Shown here: piece by piece, positions 5,876 through 18,980 of the stretch
Numbering within the stretch: position 1 is the stretch's first letter
Layout: every line of letters starts with the position of its first letter
The notes under the pieces: generated by a model
The model's input: the letters and a program-made list of their open reading frames with translations, nothing else
What the model was told of the DNA's origin: nothing
Database searches by the model: none
Position numbers and translations under genes: made by a program
NCBI RefSeq assembly: GCF_025998535.1
Contig: NZ_AP024233.1
Location: 2,550,001 to 2,614,000 of the forward strand
Direction of reading: 5' to 3'
DNA length: 64,000 nt
Source of the DNA: Desulfolithobacter dissulfuricans
Lineage (GTDB): Bacteria > Desulfobacterota > Desulfobulbia > Desulfobulbales > Desulfobulbaceae

Positions 5876-7165
5876 TTATTTTTTCCCTGCCCCATCACCC
5901 AGAGTCTCTCCGTCGGCCAGCCGCGAGATCCCCTGCCACTGCTGCTCACCGGAGTCGGGACTGATGATGCAGTTGCGCCCCACCCGGACGTTTTCCGGGA
6001 CCAGGGCCTTCTTGCCCACGAGGGTGATCCCGGTATAGAGATGGGTGGGGTAGTCAACATTGGGACATCCCTTGTTGTCCCCATCGCCCACCCGGGCCCC
6101 GGCCCCGATACGAACCCTTTTGTCGCAGATGCACAGGTCCACCACCGCGTTTCGTTCGATGACCGAATCCTGGAAGATTACCGAGTCGCGGATCACCGCC
6201 CCCTTTTCCACCCGGACACCGGGCGAGAGTATGGAGTTAATCACCGTGCCCTCGATAACACTGCCGGCGCAGACCATGGAGGACTCCACCCGGCAGCCGC
6301 TCAGGAAACGGGCCGGAGCCCGGTCCATGGGCAGCCCGTCGGCCTCGACGTTGGAGCGGATCCCCCACGCCTCGGGTGTTATGTCGGAATCGGGCCGGAT
6401 CACGTCCATGTTGGCCTCCCAGTAGGCCTGGATGGTTCCCACATCGCGCCAGTAGCCATAAAAGGGATAGGCAAACACCCGGTCTTGCTCGATGGCCCTG
6501 GGGATGATGTGCATGCCGAAATCTATCTCCTTCCGGTCGCGCTCCAGCGTCCGGAGCAGATACTCGGTATCAAAGACATAGATACCCATGGAGGCAAGGT
6601 TGGTCCTGGGCTCCCTGGGTTTTTCCTCCCAGTCGATGATCCGGTTCTCCCGGTCGACGATACCGGCTCCGAACTGATGGATCTCGCTCTTGGGCACCAC
6701 CATCATGCCGATGGTCACATCGGCCTTCTTGACCTGGTGATAGACCTGCATGGCGGCGAAATCCATCTGGTATATATGATCTCCGGACAGGATCAGGACC
6801 TGTTCCGAGGGATTGGCGCGTATGAAATCGATATTCTGGCGGATGGCATCGGCCGTGCCCTTGTACCAGTCGGAATCGCGCTCGCCGGTGCGCGGCGGGA
6901 GGATTTTGACCCCGCGGGTCCGGCCGATGAAATCCCAGGCCTCACCGGTGCCGATATGCCGCATCAGGGAAAGGGGCTTGTACTGGGTCAGCACCCCCAC
7001 CCGGGTCAGGCCGGAATTCATCACATTGGAAAGGCTGAAATCAATGATCCGGTACAGGCCGCCAAAGGGCACCGCCGGCTTGGCCCGGTGACCGACCAGG
7101 ATATTGAGCCGACTGCCGATTCCACCGGCAAGCAGGAGTACCAGGGCGTCGGGAACATCTCTCAC
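5876..7165 (-). CDS. glgC: glucose-1-phosphate adenylyltransferase
   Basis: 429 residues. It makes ADP-glucose for glycogen synthesis from glucose 1-phosphate and ATP. The nucleotide-binding GGIGSRL loop, RAKPAVPFGG, the metal-binding Asp in LSGDHIYQMD and the EEKP sugar-binding segment are intact. The C-terminal third is a left-handed beta helix with hexapeptide-like repeats. The start is a GTG overlapping the stop of the upstream paralogue (GTGA), so the two are translated as a pair and may form a mixed oligomer. Confidence 0.9.
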   Translation of the reverse strand: MRDVPDALVLLLAGGIGSRLNILVGHRAKPAVPFGGLYRIIDFSLSNVMNSGLTRVGVLTQYKPLSLMRHIGTGEAWDFIGRTRGVKILPPRTGERDSDWYKGTADAIRQNIDFIRANPSEQVLILSGDHIYQMDFAAMQVYHQVKKADVTIGMMVVPKSEIHQFGAGIVDRENRIIDWEEKPREPRTNLASMGIYVFDTEYLLRTLERDRKEIDFGMHIIPRAIEQDRVFAYPFYGYWRDVGTIQAYWEANMDVIRPDSDITPEAWGIRSNVEADGLPMDRAPARFLSGCRVESSMVCAGSVIEGTVINSILSPGVRVEKGAVIRDSVIFQDSVIERNAVVDLCICDKRVRIGAGARVGDGDNKGCPNVDYPTHLYTGITLVGKKALVPENVRVGRNCIISPDSGEQQWQGISRLADGETLGDGAGKK

Positions 7166-8421
7166 TGCAGCACCTCCTTATCCTCCACCCGCCGGTTTGA
7201 TGGCCATTTTTCCGGGTCCAGCCGGGGATAAACCGTGCAGCCCCGGCCAATGACTGTGGTATCGGGCACCTGATTGTTCCAGCCAATCACGGTGATCGCC
7301 CCGTTACCGGCATGTTCATCCAGGCTGCCCACCCGGACGTCGCGGCCAAACACGGTGTTCACATCGCTGACCACCCGGCCGAGCCTGGCGCCCGAGCGTA
7401 CCGTGTTGTTGAAAAAGAGTACACTGTCACGCACCTCGGCCCCCTCCTCCACCCGGACCCCTGGAAAGAGGATGGAGTTGACCACCCGTCCCTCGATGAT
7501 GCAGCCGTTATAAACCATGGAGTTGTCCAGTACTCCCCGGGCCCCCACCTTGAGCGGCTGGCAATCGCGGATACCGCGGTGTTCAAGATTGGTCCGCAAT
7601 CCCCATTTCTCCATGTCGATCTTCGGCTCCGGCCCCAGCAGGTCCATGGAGGTCTGCCAGTACTCATCAATGGTCCGGGTATAGCCCCAGTAGCCGCGGA
7701 ACTTGTAGCCGTACACCTTGTACTTTTCCCGCATCATCATGGGGATGATATCGCGGCCGAACTCATAGGAGGTTCCTTTCTGGTTTTCCTCAAGCACCTC
7801 GTACATCACTTCTGGCCGGAAACAGAGTACGGTGAGAGAGGCCCAGCCGCTTCTTGGTCTGGCCGGTTTTTCCTCGTAGGAGAGCAGCCGGCCGCCCTCT
7901 TCGTCCCGGCCTTCGATCTCCGCCACCCCGAACCGGTGGGCCGACTCGACGGGGACCTCGATGAAGGCCGCAGTCAGATCGGCGCCCTTGCTGTAATGGT
8001 AACGGATCATGTTTCGGTAATCCATCTGATAGATGTGATCACCGGAGAGAACGAGAATCTCAGCGGGATTATGATAGCGGACAAAGTCCAGGTTCTGGTA
8101 GACCGCATCGGCGGAGCCCCGGTACCAGTGCGGGTTTTCATAATCCTTGAACGGAGGCAGGATGTTAATCCCACGATATCGGCCGATCATGTCCCAGGCC
8201 GCGCCGGTACCGATATGATTGATCAGGGAATAGGATCGATACTGGCTGAGGATGGCCACCATCTCGATCCCGGAGCACATCAGGTTGGAAAGCGGGAAAT
8301 CGATCACCCGGGCAAAACCGCCAAAGGGAACCGCTGACTTGGGTCGATAATGGGTAAGCACACCCAGTTCATCAACCCGACCGCCCGCAAGAATCATTGC
8401 CAGAGTGGAGGGTTTATACAT
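7162..8421 (-). CDS. GlgC-type nucleotidyltransferase paralogue with altered nucleotide loop
   Basis: 419 residues, homologous along its length to the downstream GlgC. It keeps RPKSAVPFGG, LSGDHIYQMDY, SYEEKP and a C-terminal beta helix. The normal GGxGxRL nucleotide loop is replaced by GGRVDEL, losing the second Gly and the conserved Arg. Such pairs recall GlgC/GlgD of Bacillus-type bacteria, where GlgD modulates the catalytic partner. Whether this copy is catalytic, regulatory, or uses another nucleotide cannot be decided from sequence. It is first in the two-gene unit, overlapping glgC by 4 nt. Confidence 0.85.
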   Translation of the reverse strand: MYKPSTLAMILAGGRVDELGVLTHYRPKSAVPFGGFARVIDFPLSNLMCSGIEMVAILSQYRSYSLINHIGTGAAWDMIGRYRGINILPPFKDYENPHWYRGSADAVYQNLDFVRYHNPAEILVLSGDHIYQMDYRNMIRYHYSKGADLTAAFIEVPVESAHRFGVAEIEGRDEEGGRLLSYEEKPARPRSGWASLTVLCFRPEVMYEVLEENQKGTSYEFGRDIIPMMMREKYKVYGYKFRGYWGYTRTIDEYWQTSMDLLGPEPKIDMEKWGLRTNLEHRGIRDCQPLKVGARGVLDNSMVYNGCIIEGRVVNSILFPGVRVEEGAEVRDSVLFFNNTVRSGARLGRVVSDVNTVFGRDVRVGSLDEHAGNGAITVIGWNNQVPDTTVIGRGCTVYPRLDPEKWPSNRRVEDKEVLQ

Positions 8422-8676
8422 GCGCGCACCTTTCTGTGCTGAAGAAACAGGATTGGTACCTGTTATTCTATTGTATAACCACCTGACGCTGCAACATATT
8501 TAACCGAAAAACTCCGGCGCCAACACGAAGATAAAGCCCCTGTTGTCCCTGGGCGCTCATCACTACACCAGTGTATCTCTGGAAAAAAAGAGGCGGGCAG
8601 ATTCTGATGGAAGGTCCGCTACCCGGCCCCGGGCTGGGCCGGCAGGCTGCGGCAGCCAAAAAAGGCCGCCGGGTGA

Positions 8677-9741
8677 TCAGCGCATATGGCGGGTGGCCAG
8701 TCGCATGAGGGTATGGGTGGAAAACTCGTGATTCTCGCGCAGGGGCAGATTCTTGAGCGGCACCTCGGCCCGGGCCGCCTCCTTGTGGCCGCCGGCCGAG
8801 CCGAACTCGCCAAAGGTCTTCTGGGCGAGCTTACCGGCATTCTTGCGGTACCCGTCGCAGCGGAAGATGACGATCAGTTTCTCGCCATGGATACCCGAGA
8901 CCAGAACCCAGTCGATCTTGTCGACCCGGTTGAAAAAGTCGGCGATGATCACCTGAATATCCGGGGTCCCCACCCGGCCGAGATGGATATAGGCCCTCCC
9001 TTTGGAGACCTTGAGCTCGTTCAGGGCGATTTTGAAATACTTGAGCTCCGAGCGGCGCAGTTCGGTGAGCTCGAACTTACGAACCAGGTTGCGGTTGGCA
9101 AACTTGAATACGTAACGAAAGGCAATACCGTCGGCCAGGAGCGAACTCTTTTCAAAATTCTGGGTGTCGACCTTGATCCCGTAAAACAGGGCCGTGGCCA
9201 GGGCCACCGAGGGCTTGATTCCAGCCGCGCGCAGGTACTCCACCATCATGGTGGAAACCGCGCCGTATTCGGGCCGGATATCGATGAACTTCGCGTCCCA
9301 GCCTTCGGTTACCGGATGATGGTCGATGACCGCATCAAACTCCAGTTTTTCAAAACAGGGCTGATGGGTGGGCTGGGAATCGATCAGGATGCGCTTGGAA
9401 TAGTCCTTGACCGGCAGGGTATGGAGCCGCTCGATGGGAATCTTGAGCCGCTCCACCATGGTCAGGTTGTTCAGCCGCCGGATTTCATTGGGATAGCCGA
9501 TGGTCACCGAGCCGACCCGGTAGCTCAGCAGCCGTTTCATGGCCATGGCACTGGCCAGGGCATCGGGATCGGCGCTGATGACAATCAGCACCTCGTCGTC
9601 CCGGTCAAAAAGTTCCCACAGGCCGTTGAGACGATCCCGGGCCGAGTTACGGCTGGCGCTGCGGGTAATGGTATCGGCTATCTTTTCAAGTCGTTTCTGC
9701 TGCAAATGTGTACCTGCAAAAAAAAACCACTGCAACCGCAC
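8677..9741 (-). CDS. DHH-family phosphoesterase (NrnA-like)
   Basis: Up to 354 residues. The DHH domain shows SADPDALASAMA (motif I), IDSQ (motif II) and IDHHP (motif III); the DHHA1 domain has SAGGHKEAARAEV near the C-terminus. This arrangement fits exopolyphosphatase/nanoRNase-type enzymes that degrade short oligonucleotides, pAp or cyclic dinucleotide products, with two metal ions in the cytoplasm. The start is uncertain: the GTG at 9741 lacks a clear ribosome site, and a TTG 12 codons later could be the real start. Confidence 0.85.
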   Translation of the reverse strand: MRLQWFFFAGTHLQQKRLEKIADTITRSASRNSARDRLNGLWELFDRDDEVLIVISADPDALASAMAMKRLLSYRVGSVTIGYPNEIRRLNNLTMVERLKIPIERLHTLPVKDYSKRILIDSQPTHQPCFEKLEFDAVIDHHPVTEGWDAKFIDIRPEYGAVSTMMVEYLRAAGIKPSVALATALFYGIKVDTQNFEKSSLLADGIAFRYVFKFANRNLVRKFELTELRRSELKYFKIALNELKVSKGRAYIHLGRVGTPDIQVIIADFFNRVDKIDWVLVSGIHGEKLIVIFRCDGYRKNAGKLAQKTFGEFGSAGGHKEAARAEVPLKNLPLRENHEFSTHTLMRLATRHMR

Positions 9742-9875
9742 ATGCGGTCTGCAATGGCTACTTGGTGTCTATCAGCCGAGGGTAACAGCGGTGCCGGCCG
9801 GGATTACCCCCCGTACTTTGTTGTGGCTACCGGCATCAAGAGCGGATGAATTCTTCATGGCTGACATTTTATCCA

Positions 9876-9912
9876 GTTGCCTGGGAGATCGGATCGGACA
9901 CAGGCAGGCAAC
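9876..9912. repeat. 8-bp inverted repeat between two genes
   Basis: GTTGCCTG at 9876-9883 is the exact reverse complement of CAGGCAAC at 9905-9912, with a 21-nt loop. It lies downstream of the minus-strand DUF4445 gene and upstream of the DHH gene. No T-tract follows, so it may be an operator or a weak terminator. The rest of 9742-9971 shows nothing clear. Confidence 0.4.
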
Positions 9913-9971
9913 AATTTAGGCGACTATACCATACCCCTTCCAGAAAAAGCAAGCCGGGACGCACCAGCCTC

Positions 9972-11573
9972 TCAGTCGCCGCTAAATACGGGAACTGACG
10001 GAAAAAGTGATGGATCTGTATGGGGAATAAACCGGGAACCGGAAAAACATATCATGAAATCCTGGTTCACATTGAGCTCGATATAGGTGATCTTCTGGCC
10101 TATCTCCAGGCTCCGCTGCCGCGCGCTCTCCTGGAGCAGAACCAGCTCGGCCCCCTTGAGTGAACTGTTGCCGATCCCCTGGTAGGTCTCCAGTGGAAGA
10201 TCGGGCAGCATCCCCAGCACTATGGCCTGACGGGGGTTGATATGCTTGCCAAAGGCTCCTGCCACGTAAATCCGCTCCAGGTCCTCGAACCGTACCCCCA
10301 CCTGGCCTGTCAGTGTGGTCAGAATGGCATACATGGCCGCTTTGGAGCGCATCATCGCATCCAGGTCCACCTGGCTCAGGACCACCAGCTCACCGGTACC
10401 CGACTCGGCCGCCGGGGCGATGACAAAACAGGTCTCCCCGTCCATGGTCGTCAGGTGTTTTTCGACAAAACGGTGAAAGCCGGGAGGATCCGACGGGCCG
10501 CCCCGACGGAACTTGCCGCGCAGGTCAATGACCCGGGCCAGGTAGAGCTCGGCCACCAGGTCGATCATGCCGGAACCGCAGATGCCCACCGGCGGCGCAT
10601 TGTCAATGGTCCGATAGCCGAGTTCCCAGGTATCGGTATCGATATGGACATGCTCCACCGCTCCCGGACCGGCCCGCATGCCCATTTTCGCCACCCCACC
10701 CTCCAGGGCCGGACCCGCAGCCCCGGCACAGGCGATGAGCCACTCCCGGTTACCAAGCACCACCTCGGCATTGGTGCCCACATCGATGAGCATGCTGACC
10801 CTGTCCGCCTGATCCAGGCCGGAGGCCAGGATACCGGAGATCAGGTCACCACCGAAATAGGAACCGATGCTGGGCAGGATCACGACCGGGGCCCGGGGGG
10901 CCAGCCCGAGGCCCAGCTCTTCGGCAAAGAGTGGGTCCGGAGCGTTGATAAGCGGTATATAGGGTTCGCGGCAGATATGATAGGGGCTGAGCCTCAGCAG
11001 CAGATGAACCATGGTGGTATTGCCGGATACCGACAGGGCCCGGATGTCACCGGTCTTGAGTCCGGCCTCCCGGGCCAGGTCCGCGGCCAGGGAGGTGATG
11101 GAACGGATCACGGCCTCCTGCAGTTCCCCAAGCCCGTTCCTGCCGTCGGGCCCGGACGAGGTGGCATAATGAATCCGGCTGAGGATGTCGGCCCCGTACC
11201 GGATCTGCTGGTTTTCCGCATGGCCATGACCAAGCCGCTCACCGGTCAGCAGGTCGATGAGGGTGGCCTCCAGGTGGGTGGTCCCCAGATCCAGGGCCAT
11301 ACCGGGCAGAACCTGCGGCCGTGACGGGAGAAAATCCACCAGCTCCACCCCGTGGGGCAGGACATTGACCACCGCGGTACCCCTGAACCCGCTGTCCCTG
11401 AACCCGGCCGCCACCTCGGCGCAACGACCATAGGGCACGAGCAGCGGCCTCTCCCGGCAGGAGGGTGGCAGCACCAGGGCCCGGCGCAGCCGGTCGATAT
11501 CGGCGGTATTATCCTGCAGGCTCGGCACCTCGGCCGTCACATCCACATATGTAACCAGGGGCTGATCATCCAT
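9972..11573 (-). CDS. DUF4445 ASKHA-fold ATPase, RACo-like, lacking the ferredoxin domain
   Basis: 533 residues. It matches the C-terminal part of RACo/RamA-type reductive activators of corrinoid proteins: a linker/middle region (about residues 1-90), then an ASKHA ATPase core with ALDLGTTHLEA (phosphate loop 1), SGNTTMVH, LIDVGTNAEVVLG (phosphate loop 2) and YVAGAFGKHINP near the C-terminus. In RACo these domains use ATP to drive low-potential reduction of Co(II) to Co(I). The N-terminal [2Fe-2S] domain of RACo is missing here, and an in-frame stop lies shortly upstream of the ATG, so an external electron donor would be needed. The gene is divergent from the lptG unit, which contains a second ASKHA activase. 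Confidence 0.83.
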   Translation of the reverse strand: MDDQPLVTYVDVTAEVPSLQDNTADIDRLRRALVLPPSCRERPLLVPYGRCAEVAAGFRDSGFRGTAVVNVLPHGVELVDFLPSRPQVLPGMALDLGTTHLEATLIDLLTGERLGHGHAENQQIRYGADILSRIHYATSSGPDGRNGLGELQEAVIRSITSLAADLAREAGLKTGDIRALSVSGNTTMVHLLLRLSPYHICREPYIPLINAPDPLFAEELGLGLAPRAPVVILPSIGSYFGGDLISGILASGLDQADRVSMLIDVGTNAEVVLGNREWLIACAGAAGPALEGGVAKMGMRAGPGAVEHVHIDTDTWELGYRTIDNAPPVGICGSGMIDLVAELYLARVIDLRGKFRRGGPSDPPGFHRFVEKHLTTMDGETCFVIAPAAESGTGELVVLSQVDLDAMMRSKAAMYAILTTLTGQVGVRFEDLERIYVAGAFGKHINPRQAIVLGMLPDLPLETYQGIGNSSLKGAELVLLQESARQRSLEIGQKITYIELNVNQDFMICFSGSRFIPHTDPSLFPSVPVFSGD

Positions 11574-11625
11574 GACTTGAGCGTGATTCCTGTTATTCTT
11601 AAGCCCTCTTGCGGGCCGGTTCTAC

Positions 11626-11654
11626 TTGACGCGGACCGTTTGAATTGATACTAC
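11626..11654 (+). promoter_or_regulatory. candidate promoter for the lptG unit
   Basis: TTGACG at 11626-11631 is followed after 17 nt by TACTAC at 11649-11654, a fair match to a sigma-70 promoter. It lies about 75 nt before the lptG start, inside the divergent spacer 11574-11727. Confidence 0.35.
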
Positions 11655-11727
11655 ATGCGCACAAACCAGACAACAAAAACCACCCAGCTCTCCAGCCCGG
11701 AGCAGTTCCCCTGCAAACACAAATTCA

Positions 11728-12810
11728 GTGAAACTCCTTGACCGGTACATACTGGCCCAGTTCACCAGAAACCTGGTAACCATCACGGCCAGCTTTATCG
11801 CCATCTATGTCCTGATCGATTTTTTCGAAAAGATCGACAACTTCATGGAAAAGGGCAAACCCATGCTCCTGGCGATCCGGTTCTTTCTCCTCAACATTCC
11901 CTTTATCATCGAACAGCTCGGGCCGGTCTGCATTCTCCTGGCCGGGGTGGTGACCCTTGGCATCCTCAATCACTCCAATGAGCTGATAGCCCTCAAGGCC
12001 TGCGGCATTCCGCTGAAAAAGATCGCCGCCCCCATTATCGCCGGCGGCCTGGCCTGTACCCTGCTCTTTCTGGCCATGTCGCAGTTCATCCTGCCGATCA
12101 CCGTCGCCACCACCAACACCATCTGGAACAAGGAGGTCCGCGGGCGGGTGGCCACCGGCATCTACCGTAACGGCCGCTACTATTACCGGGGCCGGGAGGG
12201 CTTCTACTCCTTTGGCCGGCCCGACCTGAAGGCAAACGAGTTCCTGGACTTCTCCTACTCTTCCTGGAACGACCGCTACCAGCTGACCAGGCTGATCGCC
12301 GCCGAGCGGGCCCTGTGGCGGGACCAGACCTGGACCCTCTTTAACGGCCAGATCCAGACCCTGGAAGATGACGGCAGCTACCAGAGCCGCCTTTTCACCA
12401 GCCAGCGCTTCGAGTTCCCCGAGAAACCGGCGGATTTCTTTGTCCCGGAGTACCGCAGCCTGGAACTCTCCCTCACCGGGCTGTACCGGGAAGCGAAACA
12501 GAAGGTATCGCCCGAGGAAAAAGCCCGGGCCTGGGCCGAATTTTATGGCCGCATTTCCTACACCCTGCTCGGGTTGCCCCTTCTCCTCCTGGGGTTGCCG
12601 CTGCTGCTCATGGTCTACCGGAAATGGGGTCGGGACCTGTCCCTGGCCATTCCGGTATCCTGCGGCCTGGCCTTTGCCTGCTGGGGCATCTGGGGCATCC
12701 TCCAGTCCCTGGCCAGAGCCGCTTACGTGAGTCCGGTGCTGGCGGCCACGGCAATCCATGTTGTGGTGGGTACCACGGGTGTTGTTCTGCTTTTGCGGGA
12801 GGATGTATGA
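11728..12810 (+). CDS. lptG: LPS export ABC transporter permease LptG (LptF/LptG family)
   Basis: 360 residues with the LptF/G layout: three N-terminal membrane helices (about residues 15-110), a large periplasmic beta domain (about 115-270) and three C-terminal helices (about 278-358). The opening MKLLDRYILAQFTRNL and NELIALKACGIPLKKI are typical of LptG-like members. Together with LptF and the LptB ATPase it extracts lipopolysaccharide from the inner membrane. The start is a GTG at 11728. No lptF is adjacent, and the next gene overlaps its stop (ATGA). LptG heading a unit of activase-like genes is unexpected. Confidence 0.82.
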   Translation: MKLLDRYILAQFTRNLVTITASFIAIYVLIDFFEKIDNFMEKGKPMLLAIRFFLLNIPFIIEQLGPVCILLAGVVTLGILNHSNELIALKACGIPLKKIAAPIIAGGLACTLLFLAMSQFILPITVATTNTIWNKEVRGRVATGIYRNGRYYYRGREGFYSFGRPDLKANEFLDFSYSSWNDRYQLTRLIAAERALWRDQTWTLFNGQIQTLEDDGSYQSRLFTSQRFEFPEKPADFFVPEYRSLELSLTGLYREAKQKVSPEEKARAWAEFYGRISYTLLGLPLLLLGLPLLLMVYRKWGRDLSLAIPVSCGLAFACWGIWGILQSLARAAYVSPVLAATAIHVVVGTTGVVLLLREDV

Positions 12811-13561
12811 TGAAGGAGAAACGGGCCGGAATCGTCGGGGTACCGCCGCTGTCTGTCATTCGCACTCTTCACGAAGAGCGCTTTAACATTTTTGACCTGG
12901 ACGAGCCCCAGGTGCGGGTCTCCCTGGACCTGACATCGCGCTACCTGCCCCGCGTTTACTGCGCCATCCTGCGCACCGTGGTGCTCAATGCCATGCACCT
13001 GAAACTCGATGTGGTCTACATCGACGTGGGCCCGGGTAAATGTGACTGCGCCCTGCACGTGGCCACCATTCTCGAGGATATCCTCGACTGCCCGGTGATC
13101 CAGACCCGCAACACCGACACCACCGGCTTTGGCACTCCTGTCTGCCGGGCCCGGATGAAACTGGTGGACAAGTTCCTGGCCATCACCCGCAGTGTCCAGT
13201 CGCCCCTGCCCCATGATGATATCCCGGCCTGCACTCCCACGGCCGGTTTCTGGGGGTACCGCCACGGGATTTCTCCATCCTCGAGCTCTTTCCCGACACC
13301 ACCCATGTCTATGGCTGGACCCGCTGCATGGAAAACAAGACCCCGGCCGACCTGAGGCTGGAACATCACATCAACCCCGAGGTACCCACCGTGTTCTTTG
13401 CCCAGTCGTTCTGTGCCAAAAACGCCTTGGCCCATCACCTGGTGGAGCACCATCCCCGGGCCCTGTACCTGGACTGCGACGTAACGGCCTCCAGTTCGGT
13501 GCGGGCCAAAATCGAGGCCTTTCTGGAACTTTCCGGGGTCAAACCGGCAGGGAGCAGGTGA
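12807..13561 (+). CDS. unrecognised Cys-rich conserved-looking protein, split by a -1 frameshift
   Basis: Two frames read as one protein of about 250 residues. The first runs from the ATG at 12807 (RBS GGGAGG) and stays sensible up to AGFWG near 13256; it would then end in unrelated sequence at 13355. The second continues from VPPRDFSILELFPDTTHVYG through the ATG at 13328 to the stop at 13561. The junction is the G-run 13252-13256: one more G would join the frames. Cysteines are frequent (GKCDC, DC, AC, RC, FC, DC), suggesting a metal or Fe-S site. I do not recognise the family. FWGVPP and the spaced Cys residues faintly recall 2-hydroxyacyl-CoA dehydratase components, the known partners of the activase type encoded next, but this is weak. 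It overlaps lptG by 4 nt and the activase gene follows almost directly. Confidence 0.6.
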
Positions 13562-13566
13562 ACGAC

Positions 13567-14232
13567 ATGCTGCTGGCTGATTTTGGCACCTCATACTGCA
13601 AGATTCTCGATACCGAGTCCGGAAAACCGCCGACCATCCTGGCAACCCGGGACCTGGACCGGAATTTTCTCGCCGACCTGGCCACCGGCCATAATGCCCG
13701 CCGCCGGAGCCGGCGCCATGTCAACGAGCTGACCGCCCTGGCCCGGGGCGGAGAAACCCTGATCAGGGAGAAGGACTATGTCCTCCTGGACTGCGGCAGC
13801 CGTGACATCAAGTTTGTCCGCTACGAGGACGGCAAGGTGACCGACATGGGCTGGAACGCCGAATGTGGCGCCTCCATGGGCTTTACCATCGAGCTGCTGG
13901 CCAGCTATTATGATATCGACTATGCCACCGTCCCGGTGCCGGAGAAGGGTTTCTCCATCACCTGCGGGGTGCTGGGCATGAGCCATATCTTCGATGCCGT
14001 GGTCTCAGGTTCGTCCGAGACCGAGGCCGTGGCCCGCTTTGTCCGCGGTATCGCCCTGAACGGCTACCGCTTTGCCGGCTCCCCCGATCATCTCTACCTC
14101 TCCGGCGGGCTCTGTGACAACCCCCTGTTTGTCGCCAGTTTTCCCTGCTCGGTCACCCCGCTGGGTCGATTCGTTCTTCTGGACGGCCTCAGGGCCATTG
14201 CCTCGGCAGAACATGGAACGGAAAAAAACTGA
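13567..14232 (+). CDS. BadF/BadG/BcrA/HgdC-type ASKHA ATPase (2-hydroxyacyl-CoA dehydratase activase-like)
   Basis: 221 residues. Phosphate loop 1 appears as ADFGTSYCKI, loop 2 as LDCGSRDIKFV, and the adenosine loop as YLSGGLCDNP. The two cysteines that bind the dimer-bridging [4Fe-4S] cluster in HgdC map to AECGASMGF and FSITCGVLG. Family members hydrolyse ATP to deliver one low-potential electron to a partner enzyme. The partner here is unknown. The ATG at 13567 has an AGGTGA at good spacing; a GTG at 13558 overlapping the previous stop is an alternative. It is shorter than HgdC, mostly through trimmed loops. Confidence 0.75.
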   Translation: MLLADFGTSYCKILDTESGKPPTILATRDLDRNFLADLATGHNARRRSRRHVNELTALARGGETLIREKDYVLLDCGSRDIKFVRYEDGKVTDMGWNAECGASMGFTIELLASYYDIDYATVPVPEKGFSITCGVLGMSHIFDAVVSGSSETEAVARFVRGIALNGYRFAGSPDHLYLSGGLCDNPLFVASFPCSVTPLGRFVLLDGLRAIASAEHGTEKN

Positions 14233-15070
14233 GAGAGGCCGGGTCTGGACCACCGGGTTTTCCAGCTGGGGCAAGAGCCTGCCCCCACTCCTTGAGCAGG
14301 CGAACCTGGCCGGACACCTGGCCGCAACCGATCCTCCCTGTATCCTGATCAAGCCCAACCTGGTCGAAGCCATACCTCCACCGGTCACCACCCCGGTTGG
14401 TCTGGTAGCCGCCCTGATCGATTTCCTGCGCCAGGTAACAGACAGGGATATCATCATCGCTGAAGGGACCGGCTCGCTCCACTACGATACCTTCCACTGT
14501 TTCAGTGAACTTGGCTACACCCGGCTGGCCAGGGAGAAAAACATCCCCCTGCTCGACCTCAACAGGGAAGAGCCGGTCCGTCTCGCCAATCCCCGCTGCC
14601 GCCGCTGGCCGGAGATGTACCTGCCGGCCATTGCCCTTGAAAGTTACCTGATCTCGGTTCCGGTACTCAAGGCCCATAGCCTGGCCGGTGTCACCCTGAC
14701 CATGAAGAACATGATGGGCCTGGCTCCGCCCGACCGCTACTGCCAAGGCGGTTCCTGGAAGAAATCCGCCTTCCATGAGGGTATCCAGGAGGCTATTGCC
14801 GACCTGAACCGATACCGGACCCCGGATTTCACCATCCTCGACGCCACCGTCGGCATGTGCGAGGCCCATCTCTGGGGCCGGCACTGCGAACCACCACCCA
14901 ACCTGCTGGCCGGTGGATATGATCCGGTGGCCCTGGACAGTTTCGGTGCCGGCCTGCTTGAGCGCCACTGGCAGGACATAGGTCATATCCGGGCAGTGGA
15001 CCGCGAACTCGGTCTGGCCGCCCCCCTGGAGTGTGTGGAGGTGGTGCCCAGGCAGCAGGAGACGGGCTGA
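14213..15070 (+). CDS. DUF362 family protein
   Basis: 285 residues. The DUF362 hallmarks are present: LIKPNLVEA near the N-terminus, the acidic IIAEGTGSLHYDT segment, and SVPVLKAH followed by LTMKNMMGLAP. The C-terminal ferredoxin CxxC motifs found in some DUF362 proteins are absent. The function of the family is unknown; members often sit with Fe-S or cobalamin proteins. The ATG at 14213 lies inside the activase gene (20-nt overlap), implying coupled translation. It is the last gene of the unit and is followed at once by a terminator. Confidence 0.82.
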   Translation: MERKKTERGRVWTTGFSSWGKSLPPLLEQANLAGHLAATDPPCILIKPNLVEAIPPPVTTPVGLVAALIDFLRQVTDRDIIIAEGTGSLHYDTFHCFSELGYTRLAREKNIPLLDLNREEPVRLANPRCRRWPEMYLPAIALESYLISVPVLKAHSLAGVTLTMKNMMGLAPPDRYCQGGSWKKSAFHEGIQEAIADLNRYRTPDFTILDATVGMCEAHLWGRHCEPPPNLLAGGYDPVALDSFGAGLLERHWQDIGHIRAVDRELGLAAPLECVEVVPRQQETG

Positions 15071-16725: not shown

Positions 16726-18887
16726 CTACCGGCGCCGGACCTCGATAACCACCGGCATCTGCTGCAGATGCTGTTGCAGGGTCTGGAGATGGTTCAGGTC
16801 GCTAACCTGGACCACTACCTCCATTTCCACCAGGTTCTCCGAGGTGATCCGCGAGTTGAGCTCGACGATTTCGGCATCATCGGCATTGATGGTGGAGGAA
16901 ATTTCGACCAGGAGGTTTTTCTGGTTTTCGGCCCGGATCAGGAGGGCGGACCGATGGGTGGCTTTCGGGCTTCCCGACCACCGCACCGCGATCCAGCGCC
17001 GGGGATCGGTGGTCCTCAGATTGGGACAATCCGCCTTGTGGACAGAGATACCCCGACCGGTGGTGATGAAACCGACAATCTCGTCCCCGGGAACCGGCTT
17101 GCAGCACTGACTCACCCGGACAAGCATGTCATCGAGGCCGTCGATGTCGACAATCTCACTGTCGGCGGCCGTCCCCTTGCCGGATTCCGCCTTTTTATTC
17201 TTTTCCAGCAGTTCCTGTCGGGCACGCTGTTCTTTTTCCTCCCTGGTTTCAGGCGGTTCCAGGACCTCGGTCAGGTGAGCCACGGTAATGGCCCCGGAGC
17301 CCACCTTGACAAGCATGTCATCGAGCGAGTTGCAGCGCAGCTTTTTCAAAAGCATCTTGATATGGCCGCTCTTGATCAGCTTTTTCAAGGCCACATCATG
17401 TTTGCGCAGTTCCCGCTCGCAGATCTCCCGGCCCAGGCGCAGAGCCTTTTCCTTTTCCTCGCGCCGCAGGTACTGGCGGATGCAGGTCCGGGCCCGGCTG
17501 GTCTTGACATACTGGAGCCAGGCCCGCCGGGGATGCTGGTTCTTGGAGGTGATGATCTCGACGATATCGCCGTTCTGCAGCTCATGCCTGAGTGGTACGA
17601 TCTGGCCGTTGACCCGGGCTCCGCTGCACTTATCACCCACCGCACTGTGGATGGAATAGGCAAAATCGATCGGCGTCGAGCCGCGGGGCAGTTCCCGGAC
17701 CTCGCCGGTGGGGGTCAGGACATAGATATCCGGATCATAGAGCTCGCCCCGGACCGACTCGAGAAATTCACTGGGATCCTCGACCTCCTGCAGAGTCTGG
17801 ACCAGTTTCTTGAGCTCCTTGAACAGCCGGGCATCGGACTGGCTGATGTTCTGGCCTTCCTTGTAAGCCCAGTGGGCGGCGATACCCTCCTGGGCGATCC
17901 GGTCCATCTCTTCGGTACGGATCTGAATCTCGATGAAATGCCCCGGGGACCAATGACCGTGGTGTGCAGGGACTGATAGTTATTGGACTTGGGAGCGGAA
18001 ATAAAATCCTTGATCCTCCCCGGCACCGGCGGCCAGTCGCCGTGTACCGTGCCCAGAGCCTCGTAACATTCCTTGACCGACGAGACGATGATCCGGAAGG
18101 CCACCTTGTCGTAGACCCGCTCCAGGGGGATATTCTGGGCCACCAGCTTCTTGTAGATGGAATAGAGATGCTTGGGGCGACCGATGATCCGAATGGGCCG
18201 GATATTGTTTTTATGCAGTTTCTTGTACAGGGTGTGGATAACCTCTTCCACATACTCCTGCCGCTGGGCCAGGGTACTCTCCAGCCGCCGGGTCAGATCG
18301 GCGAACTCGGTGGGGAAGAGATACTGAAACGAAAGATCCTCCAGCTCCCGCTTCATCCAGTCGATACCCAGCCGGCTGGCCAGGGGCGCATAGAGATCCA
18401 TGGTTTCCCGGGCCACCCGTCGGCGGCGCTCAGGATCGGCTGAACCCAGGGTGATCATATCCTGGAGCCGATCGGCCAGCTTGACCAGCAGAACCCGGAT
18501 ATCGGCCCCCATGGCCAGGAAGAGCTTGCGGATATTTTCGGCCTGGTGGGCAAGCCGTGAACTGTAGTGAACGTTGGTTATCCGGGTGGTGCCGTCAACG
18601 ATGTTGGCCACGTCACGACCAAAGCGTTTTTCCAGTTCCTTGAAGGTGGCCACCTCTTCCTTGAGCACCCCGTGCAGCAGACCGGCGACAATGGTATCCA
18701 GGTCCAGTTTCATCGTGGCCAGGGTTGTGGCCACCTCCAGCAGATGCTGAATGTACGGCTCACCGGAGATGTGGGTGTGATCACTGTGCCGCTCACAGAC
18801 AAATTCGTATGCCCGGGTGAGCGGTTCCAGATCCACATCGTGCAGGTAGCTCGATGCTATGGCGATAAGACCCTGAATATCAGACAT
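16726..18887 (-). CDS. rel: RelA/SpoT-type (p)ppGpp synthetase with degenerate hydrolase domain, frameshifted
   Basis: Two frames make one RSH protein of about 720 residues: HD domain, synthetase, TGS, helical linker, RIS/ZBD (VSQCCKPVPGDEIVGF) and ACT. The N-terminal frame (start ATG 18887) runs through YQSLHTTVIGPRG and then leaves frame at 17941-17948; the C-terminal frame resumes with HFIEIQIRTEEMDRI and ends at 16726. One extra G in the GGGG run would restore it. The synthetase motifs (GRPKHLYSIYKK, YDKVAFRI, EIQIRT) are intact across the junction. The hydrolase domain has AGLLHGVLKEE where LLHDVVED is expected and ADRLQDM for ADRLHNM, so it is probably inactive. It lies between proS (93 nt upstream) and smr. 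Confidence 0.85.
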
Positions 18888-18980
18888 GGTCAGCGTATTG
18901 TGGTGTTCAGTTGAAGATAACGGCAAACCCCCGGGTGTTCCGCATATCCCTTCGCCACGGCCCGGGCAACAGCCCGCCGG

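Follow-up and report, generated by a model that had tools for sequence, protein, structure and literature searches.

The locus described here raises the question of which protein, if any, is the partner of a short BadF/HgdC-type activase in Desulfolithobacter dissulfuricans GF1, described in the accessible text of PMC9751629 as a sulfur-disproportionating, facultatively sulfate-reducing bacterium. The window, that is, the whole stretch of 64,000 nucleotides analysed, comprises bases 2,550,001-2,614,000 of a genome consisting of a single contig of 3,596,428 bases. The activase gene lies next to a gene for a cysteine-rich protein, referred to hereafter as C. An earlier reading of this DNA (the original prediction) had joined C and the activase with a RACo-like ATPase and a DUF362 protein in a reductive activation system with two activases, and all four genes were found where it had placed them. 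From predicted folds, co-occurrence, gene coupling, and the conservation and alignment of cysteines, we now consider it likely that C and the short activase together make up a reductase in miniature, complete in itself, driven by ATP and built of two components, of the kind represented by benzoyl-coenzyme A (CoA) reductase I, the 2-hydroxyacyl-CoA dehydratases (HAD) and the double-cubane cluster protein (DCCP). Beyond that core we infer a cluster type, an electron donor, dimers and their docking, a class of substrate and a housekeeping role. The features of the pair are as follows, in window positions.

12807-13561, plus strand: C protein (cysteine-rich), 251 amino acids if read across one frame break
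12960-12962, plus strand: C Cys52, predicted cluster ligand; conserved in 30 of 30 sequences, aligned with DCCP-family C114
13041-13043, plus strand: C Cys79, predicted cluster ligand; 30 of 30, aligned with DCCP-family C144
13252-13256, plus strand: G run inside the C gene, one base shorter than the frame of relatives requires
13325-13327, plus strand: C Cys174, past the frame break; 30 of 30, aligned with DCCP-family C309
13412-13414, plus strand: C Cys203, past the frame break, predicted cluster ligand; 30 of 30, aligned with DCCP-family C375
13567-14232, plus strand: short BadF/HgdC-type activase, 221 amino acids, both cluster cysteines kept
13864-13866, plus strand: activase Cys100, predicted ligand of a bridging [4Fe-4S] cluster; 25 of 25 and 78 of 78, the cysteine of the N-x-x-C-A-A-x-x-G motif of 7yyl_E, 1hux_A and 4eht_A
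13963-13965, plus strand: activase Cys133, predicted ligand of the bridging cluster; 25 of 25 and 78 of 78, the cysteine of the C-T-V-F motif of 7yyl_E, 1hux_A and 4eht_A

Pairing and distribution of C and the activase

C was matched in 32 of 37 genomes, GF1 included, and the activase gene adjoined that of C in all 32. No orthologue of the activase was found in the five genomes lacking C, one of which (G013) has a general activase of 33% identity; the two proteins were co-present or co-absent in 37 of 37 genomes. One genome (G031) carried two copies of the pair. A scan with patterns that would overlook forms such as those in family f52 gave 357 stretches, the best 80 of which are the named loci referred to below. 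The activase followed C in 79 of these, and the sequence of the remaining one (L077) ends just past C. In 86 of the 97 loci with both genes read, the activase start lay no more than 21 nucleotides away from the end of the C gene, a count in which starts were chosen by script and some genomes entered twice, as named and as unnamed loci.

The named loci include Desulfobulbus, Desulfocapsa, Desulfoprunum and Desulfurivibrio, and the cable bacteria Electronema and Electrothrix. In a sample of the phylum, C was present in 28 of 395 genomes, 15 of them from the same order, five from family f30 and eight from family f52. At six f30 and f52 loci the pair was kept amid quite different neighbours, and the f52 forms occupied a very long branch in a tree of 38 of the 97 loci having both genes. 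Among 72,556 plasmid and 50,697 phage records C had no match at an expect value (E) of 0.001 or below. C was missing in genus g2 (G001, G013 and G022), where its absence looks real, and in G010 and G021, where the absence may be an assembly gap, since a DUF362 fragment and a RACo gene lie near contig ends.

As an alternative partner for the activase, the GF1 genome contained no match to the dehydratase family HGD-D at 1e-10 and none to DCCP at 1e-20. The idea that C replaces a full-length DCCP was rejected: DCCP scored above its cut-off in 13 of 37 genomes, 10 of the 32 with C and three of the five without, and its presence in those 10 indicates that C and DCCP coexist.

Predicted folds and conserved cysteines

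The AlphaFold2 model of an intact C orthologue (L033, 249 residues) had a predicted local distance difference test score (pLDDT) of 90 and a predicted template modelling score of 0.86. When this model was compared with known structures by VIA, the top ten rows were all HAD, DCCP, BzdNO or MbdON chains, with Z of 11.8-15.5 over 228-238 residues (15.5 for 3o3n_B, 15.2 for the DCCP chain 7yzm_A, 14.8 for 8s02_B and 14.6 for 9g87_B); after the family rows Z fell to 7.0 over about 80 residues. Foldseek placed chains of the same family in rows 1-7 and 9 at probability 1.00, with E from 7.9e-6 (9g87_B) to 8.0e-4 and template modelling scores by query length of 0.54-0.61. The two alpha/beta domains of the benzoyl-CoA reductase I/HAD/DCCP fold, with the cluster cleft between them, are present in the model. 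Most of the helical intermediate domain, which contributes to the CoA channel, is missing: the model has a single 11-residue helix (118-128) between strands 96-99 and 145-149, at a place equivalent to residues 156-227 of BzdN, a domain to which the available text of PMC11971306 gives a part in forming that channel. C has about 245 residues, as compared with 373-431 in the chains compared. By its predicted structure, C is a shrunken, strongly diverged member of the dehydratase/benzoyl-CoA reductase/DCCP fold family. The original prediction had stated that no dehydratase subunit was in the window; this is not supported, as C itself has that predicted fold.

No Pfam or NCBIfam model scanned names C at that model's cut-off, and the present annotation is its first with respect to those scans. 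HGD-D (PF06050) was the commonest Pfam match among the 80 C orthologues (26 of 80 at E of 1 or below, best 9.4e-5). Against its cut-off of 28.4 bits, the first member of the 80-sequence alignment gave 11.3 bits, and the GF1 protein was unmatched at E of 1 or below. For NF040772 (double-cubane cluster protein, cut-off 350 bits) no match was listed among the 80 members at the same limit. Weak, scattered matches to the unrelated families NpmA (16 of 80, best 0.054), ParA (15, 0.029) and Methyltrans_Mon_3rd (6, 0.0066) were rejected because the structure backs HGD-D only. When C was aligned by hhalign with 22 HGD-D proteins, taken from 30 loci after removal of wrong-frame, near-duplicate and short sequences, E was 1e-4 over 54 columns (probability 57), and in global mode 2e-5 over 242 columns (probability 53). 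Global alignments of C with a DCCP alignment (16 of the 25 proteins found) and with a two-sequence alignment of the HGD-D proteins L158 and L159 were unusable and were discarded.

Exactly four cysteines are invariant in C, in 80 of 80 sequences and in 19 of 19 members of a wider, hand-picked alignment that reaches down to 37% identity to its first row. All four align with cysteines conserved in 16 of 16 DCCP-family sequences (C114, C144, C309 and C375). The presumed cluster ligands of that family, C76, C114, C144, C309, C342 and C375, each found in 16 of 16, were assigned by the fit of their order and spacing to BzdN, for which the available text of PMC11971306 gives Cys36, Cys73, Cys100, Cys263, Cys293 and Cys327 as [8Fe-9S] ligands, with Cys95, Cys128 and Cys380 as ligands in BzdO. 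C76 and C342 lie opposite gaps in C, which thus matches four of the six. Among other DCCP-family cysteines, C95 and C129 (16 of 16) have no cysteine partner in C, and C283 is found in 10 of 16. A proposal that C keeps the cysteine of the first-strand loop of the C-terminal domain was dropped after the spacing was checked. Two tryptophans are also invariant, W148 and W170 in the numbering of L033, the latter three residues before Cys173 of that protein.

The activase is closest to the reductase partners of the same enzymes. In hmmsearch its profile matched 7yyl_E (DCCP-R) at 1.5e-9, 1hux_A (HgdC) at 3.4e-9 and 4eht at 3.6e-8. Its model (pLDDT 91.9) was best matched in VIA by 7yyl_E (Z 20.4 over 214 residues), followed by MbdONPQ chain D, 4eht/4ehu and 1hux at 18.6-20.3 (19.0 for 4eht_A and 18.6 for 1hux_A) and then by pantothenate kinases at 16.1; the ASKHA fold is thus predicted, with the two cysteines in place. 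Cys100 and Cys133, the cluster cysteines that the original prediction had also seen, occur without exception in an alignment of 78 sequences, made up of the window protein and those of 77 of the 80 named loci, as do Cys76 and Cys183; the aligned residues in known activases we take to be cluster ligands. Judged by its model, the protein is an activase of the BadF/HgdC type, for which ATP-dependent electron transfer is predicted. The GF1 genome also encodes a very large protein (L002, G000:C1:3353351 onward, at least 967 amino acids) with, by eye, two tandem activase-like domains, and this may perhaps be another ATP-driven reductase.

Taken together, the partner-family fold, four aligned cysteines, strict co-occurrence and tight gene coupling bear out the suggestion that the cysteine-rich protein is the activated partner. 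C is very probably the protein reduced by the BadF/HgdC-type activase.

Neighbouring genes

Three further genes at the locus come into question as parts of the system.

9972-11573, minus strand: RACo-like DUF4445 ATPase without an N-terminal [2Fe-2S] domain (RACo_C_ter 2e-92, Raco_middle 3e-51)
11728-12810, plus strand: lptG, opening the plus-strand unit (LptF_LptG, PF03739, 3.5e-64; TIGR04408, 7.3e-57)
14213-15070, plus strand: DUF362 protein (PF04015, 1.1e-40)

The plus-strand unit runs lptG, C, activase, DUF362, with overlaps of 4 nucleotides between lptG and C and of 20 nucleotides between activase and DUF362. Its first gene had been left out of the unit as originally drawn, and the RACo-like gene, which does lie divergent on the minus strand, diverges from lptG rather than from the gene for C. 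lptG stands immediately 5' of C in 67 of the 72 named loci having at least 1.3 kb of upstream sequence; it is a conserved neighbour outside the proposed mechanism.

That the RACo-like ATPase, C, the activase and the DUF362 protein make up one reductive activation system with an unlinked target now appears highly improbable. In its favour, 33 of the 43 named loci that extend 6.5 kb or more upstream have a RACo-like gene there, a short RACo orthologue (at least 53% identity) occurs in 29 of 32 genomes with C and in one of five without, and in GF1 the DUF362 and activase genes overlap. Of the 69 named loci with 1 kb or more of downstream sequence, however, only 11 have the DUF362 gene right after that of the activase (it was seen in 16 of all 80), and DUF362 orthologues occur in 18 of 32 genomes with C and in three of five without, the gene being elsewhere or absent in most C-bearing relatives. 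Neither RACo, DUF362 nor lptG was matched in the 10-19 kb fetched around the six f30 and f52 loci. The absence of RACo from genomes without C is mostly that of genus g2, where synteny and shared loss are inseparable; within the order the link to RACo is genuine, though confounded with conservation of gene order and with that absence. The protein also lacks the N-terminal [2Fe-2S] domain of RACo and AcsV: no ferredoxin domain was matched at E of 1 or below, and the AcsV model (632 positions) was matched only from position 129. The RACo-like ATPase and DUF362 are loosely linked neighbours, DUF362 being facultative. Co-occurrence in relatives had been set as the test of the four-gene system; by that test the C-activase core holds and the set of four does not.

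Open frames of the RACo-like orthologues at 44 named loci span 343-596 amino acids, some being cut by contig ends. Two further RACo-like proteins, distinct from that in the window, are encoded in GF1 by frames of 689 and 699 amino acids (G000:C1:2519085 and 3469478). Elsewhere in the window, a RelA/SpoT gene occupies 16726-18926 on the minus strand, and 5876-8421, also minus, holds two tandem glucose-1-phosphate adenylyltransferase-like genes beside a DHH-type phosphoesterase. These three genes, which on our own reading we call glgC1, glgC2 and dhh, are found near C in the order, often adjoining (43, 46 and 50 of the 80 named loci, respectively).

Proposed mechanism and alternatives

By homology to DCCP:DCCP-R and the benzoyl-CoA reductases, we propose the following mechanism. 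In an activase dimer, Cys100 and Cys133 of both subunits would together bind a single [4Fe-4S] cluster, and the dimer would receive an electron from ferredoxin or flavodoxin. After binding ATP it would dock on a homodimer of C, and ATP hydrolysis would drive the electron onto the iron-sulfur cluster of C and prevent its return. Cys52, Cys79 and Cys203 would bind that cluster in the cleft that separates the two alpha/beta domains, and the nearby Cys174 might either be its fourth ligand or belong to the substrate site. As C lacks two of the six double-cubane cysteines, a single cubane-type cluster is expected, and as it lacks most of the helical domain of the CoA channel, the substrate would not be a CoA thioester. 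The space of the lost second cubane is occupied in BzdO by Trp46 and the substrate ring (PMC11971306, in the text available); it is a guess that the invariant tryptophans of C play a similar role.

Several observations weigh against this proposal. Likeness of fold proves no function for C. The Foldseek superpositions have large root-mean-square deviations (8.2-11.0 A over gapped alignments), perhaps because of the parts missing from C, and rows 8 and 10 were unrelated chains with E below 0.001. The read-through C of GF1 matched no family in Pfam or NCBIfam at E of 1 or below, and the sole PDB profile match of the C family, to a 2-hydroxyacyl-CoA dehydratase beta subunit in two colinear patches around the first two cysteines and the C-terminus, had an E of 1.4, which is not significant alone. 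The assignment of the cysteines rests on a weak hhalign alignment of C with the DCCP family (probability 5.4, E 0.0072); the argument draws its weight from the coincidence of all four cysteines with conserved ones, not from the alignment score. The GF1 activase scored 30.8 bits against TIGR00241, far below the cut-off of 125.4, with 76 of the 78 orthologues matching at E of 0.001 or below (best 1.1e-12), and with at least one further activase-type protein in the genome (L002) it is not the sole candidate donor. At one locus, L099, alone among the loci, two other genes (about 3 kb) separate C and the activase; these (positions about 8038-10914) resemble, in what is our own reading made without a search, a lipid A glycosyltransferase and an aminoarabinose transferase. 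Finally, the four cysteines might merely form an electron-transfer cluster without catalysis, and the pair might be dead in GF1, where C is broken; both points belong to the alternatives that follow.

In the main rival reading, C does no more than carry or store electrons: a [4Fe-4S] cluster bound by Cys52, Cys79, Cys174 and Cys203, super-reduced by the activase, would feed an enzyme elsewhere in the genome, much as BzdN passes electrons to BzdO. Exactly four invariant cysteines would suit such a cluster, the [8Fe-9S] cluster of BzdN is described in the accessible part of PMC11971306 as a cofactor for electron transfer and storage, and no third gene beside the pair is common to all lineages. 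The predicted fold, however, puts the cluster in a substrate cleft, and the invariant W148 and W170, together with the conserved motifs that surround them, suggest an active site rather than a docking surface, which makes a carrier possible, if doubtful. TudS, which belongs to the family and has one domain and a [4Fe-5S] cluster, transfers sulfur without redox chemistry; it is unlikely that C is an enzyme of this sort with a regulatory activase beside it. In favour of this reading, its hosts are sulfur bacteria. Against it, a non-redox enzyme would hardly account for an activase that keeps both cluster cysteines, and the C model contains two alpha/beta domains; TudS was absent from the VIA rows listed for that model, which excludes nothing.

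It is very unlikely, too, that C is a pseudogene and the locus a decaying remnant without function in the GF1 strain, although C is out of frame in the assembly. The gene leaves frame at the G run, after which another frame completes the 251-residue protein. The remnant reading gains from a disrupted copy of C in G005 and from a TGA near the start of the match in G032. Among the first 29 relatives extracted, however, C is readable as one frame of 235-261 amino acids; of the 29 with the locus fetched, 28 have a stop-free match, that of G032 being the other, while G005 and the unbroken match of G027 are outside this set. The part after the break is as conserved in GF1 (mean identity 78.8%) as in the other 29 sequences (67.7-81.5%), and the break is spanned by two-frame matches to 46 open reading frames from named relatives, one or more of which run antisense. 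The nearby RelA/SpoT gene is also frame-broken, near 17940 in a G-rich stretch, with nine open reading frames of named relatives matching in two frames, which suggests small assembly indels in the GF1 genome. These observations favour assembly indels over a dead gene, and on this comparison of sequences the one-base deletion in the G run of C is probably an assembly error.

The reading of the pair as a small ATP-driven reductase places it beside three known systems. In DCCP:DCCP-R (6eno, 7yyl, 7yzm) both partners are homologous in fold to those of the pair, and a single catalytic gene, presumably for a homodimer, has four of six presumed cluster cysteines aligned with those of C. DCCP is longer (about 420 amino acids as compared with about 245), and in C its N-terminal part (DCCP before residue 66 is unaligned) and the greater part of the intermediate helices are missing, as are counterparts of C76 and C342, so that a double cubane is not expected; DCCP-R has 243 amino acids and the short activase 221. 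HadBC and its activator (3o3m/3o3n, 4eht) share the fold of C and the kind of activase. Unlike C, a single gene product without most of the CoA-channel domain, HAD is a heterodimer that binds CoA thioesters (PMC11971306, in the text available, and PDB titles). With BzdNO/PQ and MbdON/PQ (8s02, 9g87, 9gai), C and its activase share the fold, the proximal cysteine triad and the two-component ATP-driven principle; those enzymes differ in being heterodimers with an aromatic CoA substrate and an [8Fe-9S] cluster in one subunit, while C is without the CoA-channel domain and has fewer than six cluster cysteines. Also related are the Desulfobacterota HGD-D proteins L158 and L159 (324-340 amino acids), which by eye share the stretches 'G-F-V/A-G-V/I-P-P' and 'QSFC' with C but are longer and pass the HGD-D cut-off (117.9 and 112.6 bits); compared by profiles, they match C weakly (probability 21.8, E 0.001). 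Their matches, at about 1495-2514, belong to an HGD-D subfamily for which no name was found and which might represent an intermediate.

Both partners belong to known superfamilies; the families, structures and papers searched yielded no member of two domains that lacks the CoA-channel domain and comes with a shortened activase of its own. No description of the pair was found in the open-licence literature searched, the word 'activase' having no occurrence in the available text of PMC12998232 and PMC13047784. DCCP itself, the archetype of the family, is given as having no known biological function in the accessible part of PMC11971306.

The physiology of the C-bearing hosts is diverse, which argues for a general role rather than one single sulfur pathway. 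The wide presence of the pair in the order and its operon setting with lptG suggest a housekeeping role. We put forward, as a tentative proposal, that the pair may be a minimal ATP-driven super-reductase, a two-domain core of the double-cubane/benzoyl-CoA reductase family without the CoA domain and with one rebuilt cluster site, serving an undescribed housekeeping reduction across the Desulfobulbales. Its target could, equally tentatively, be a small molecule, a cofactor or a protein-bound group reduced below about -600 mV, in hosts that include cable bacteria and sulfur disproportionators. Few enzyme families push electrons below the normal biological range. If the proposal is true, the ATP-driven reductive chemistry of this family reaches beyond CoA esters and small test molecules, and a compact two-gene version would show which elements are sufficient for ATP-driven super-reduction, with a small study target available in Desulfobulbus rhabdoformis DSM 8777, D. 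elongatus DSM 2908 and Desulfoprunum benzoelyticum DSM 28570.

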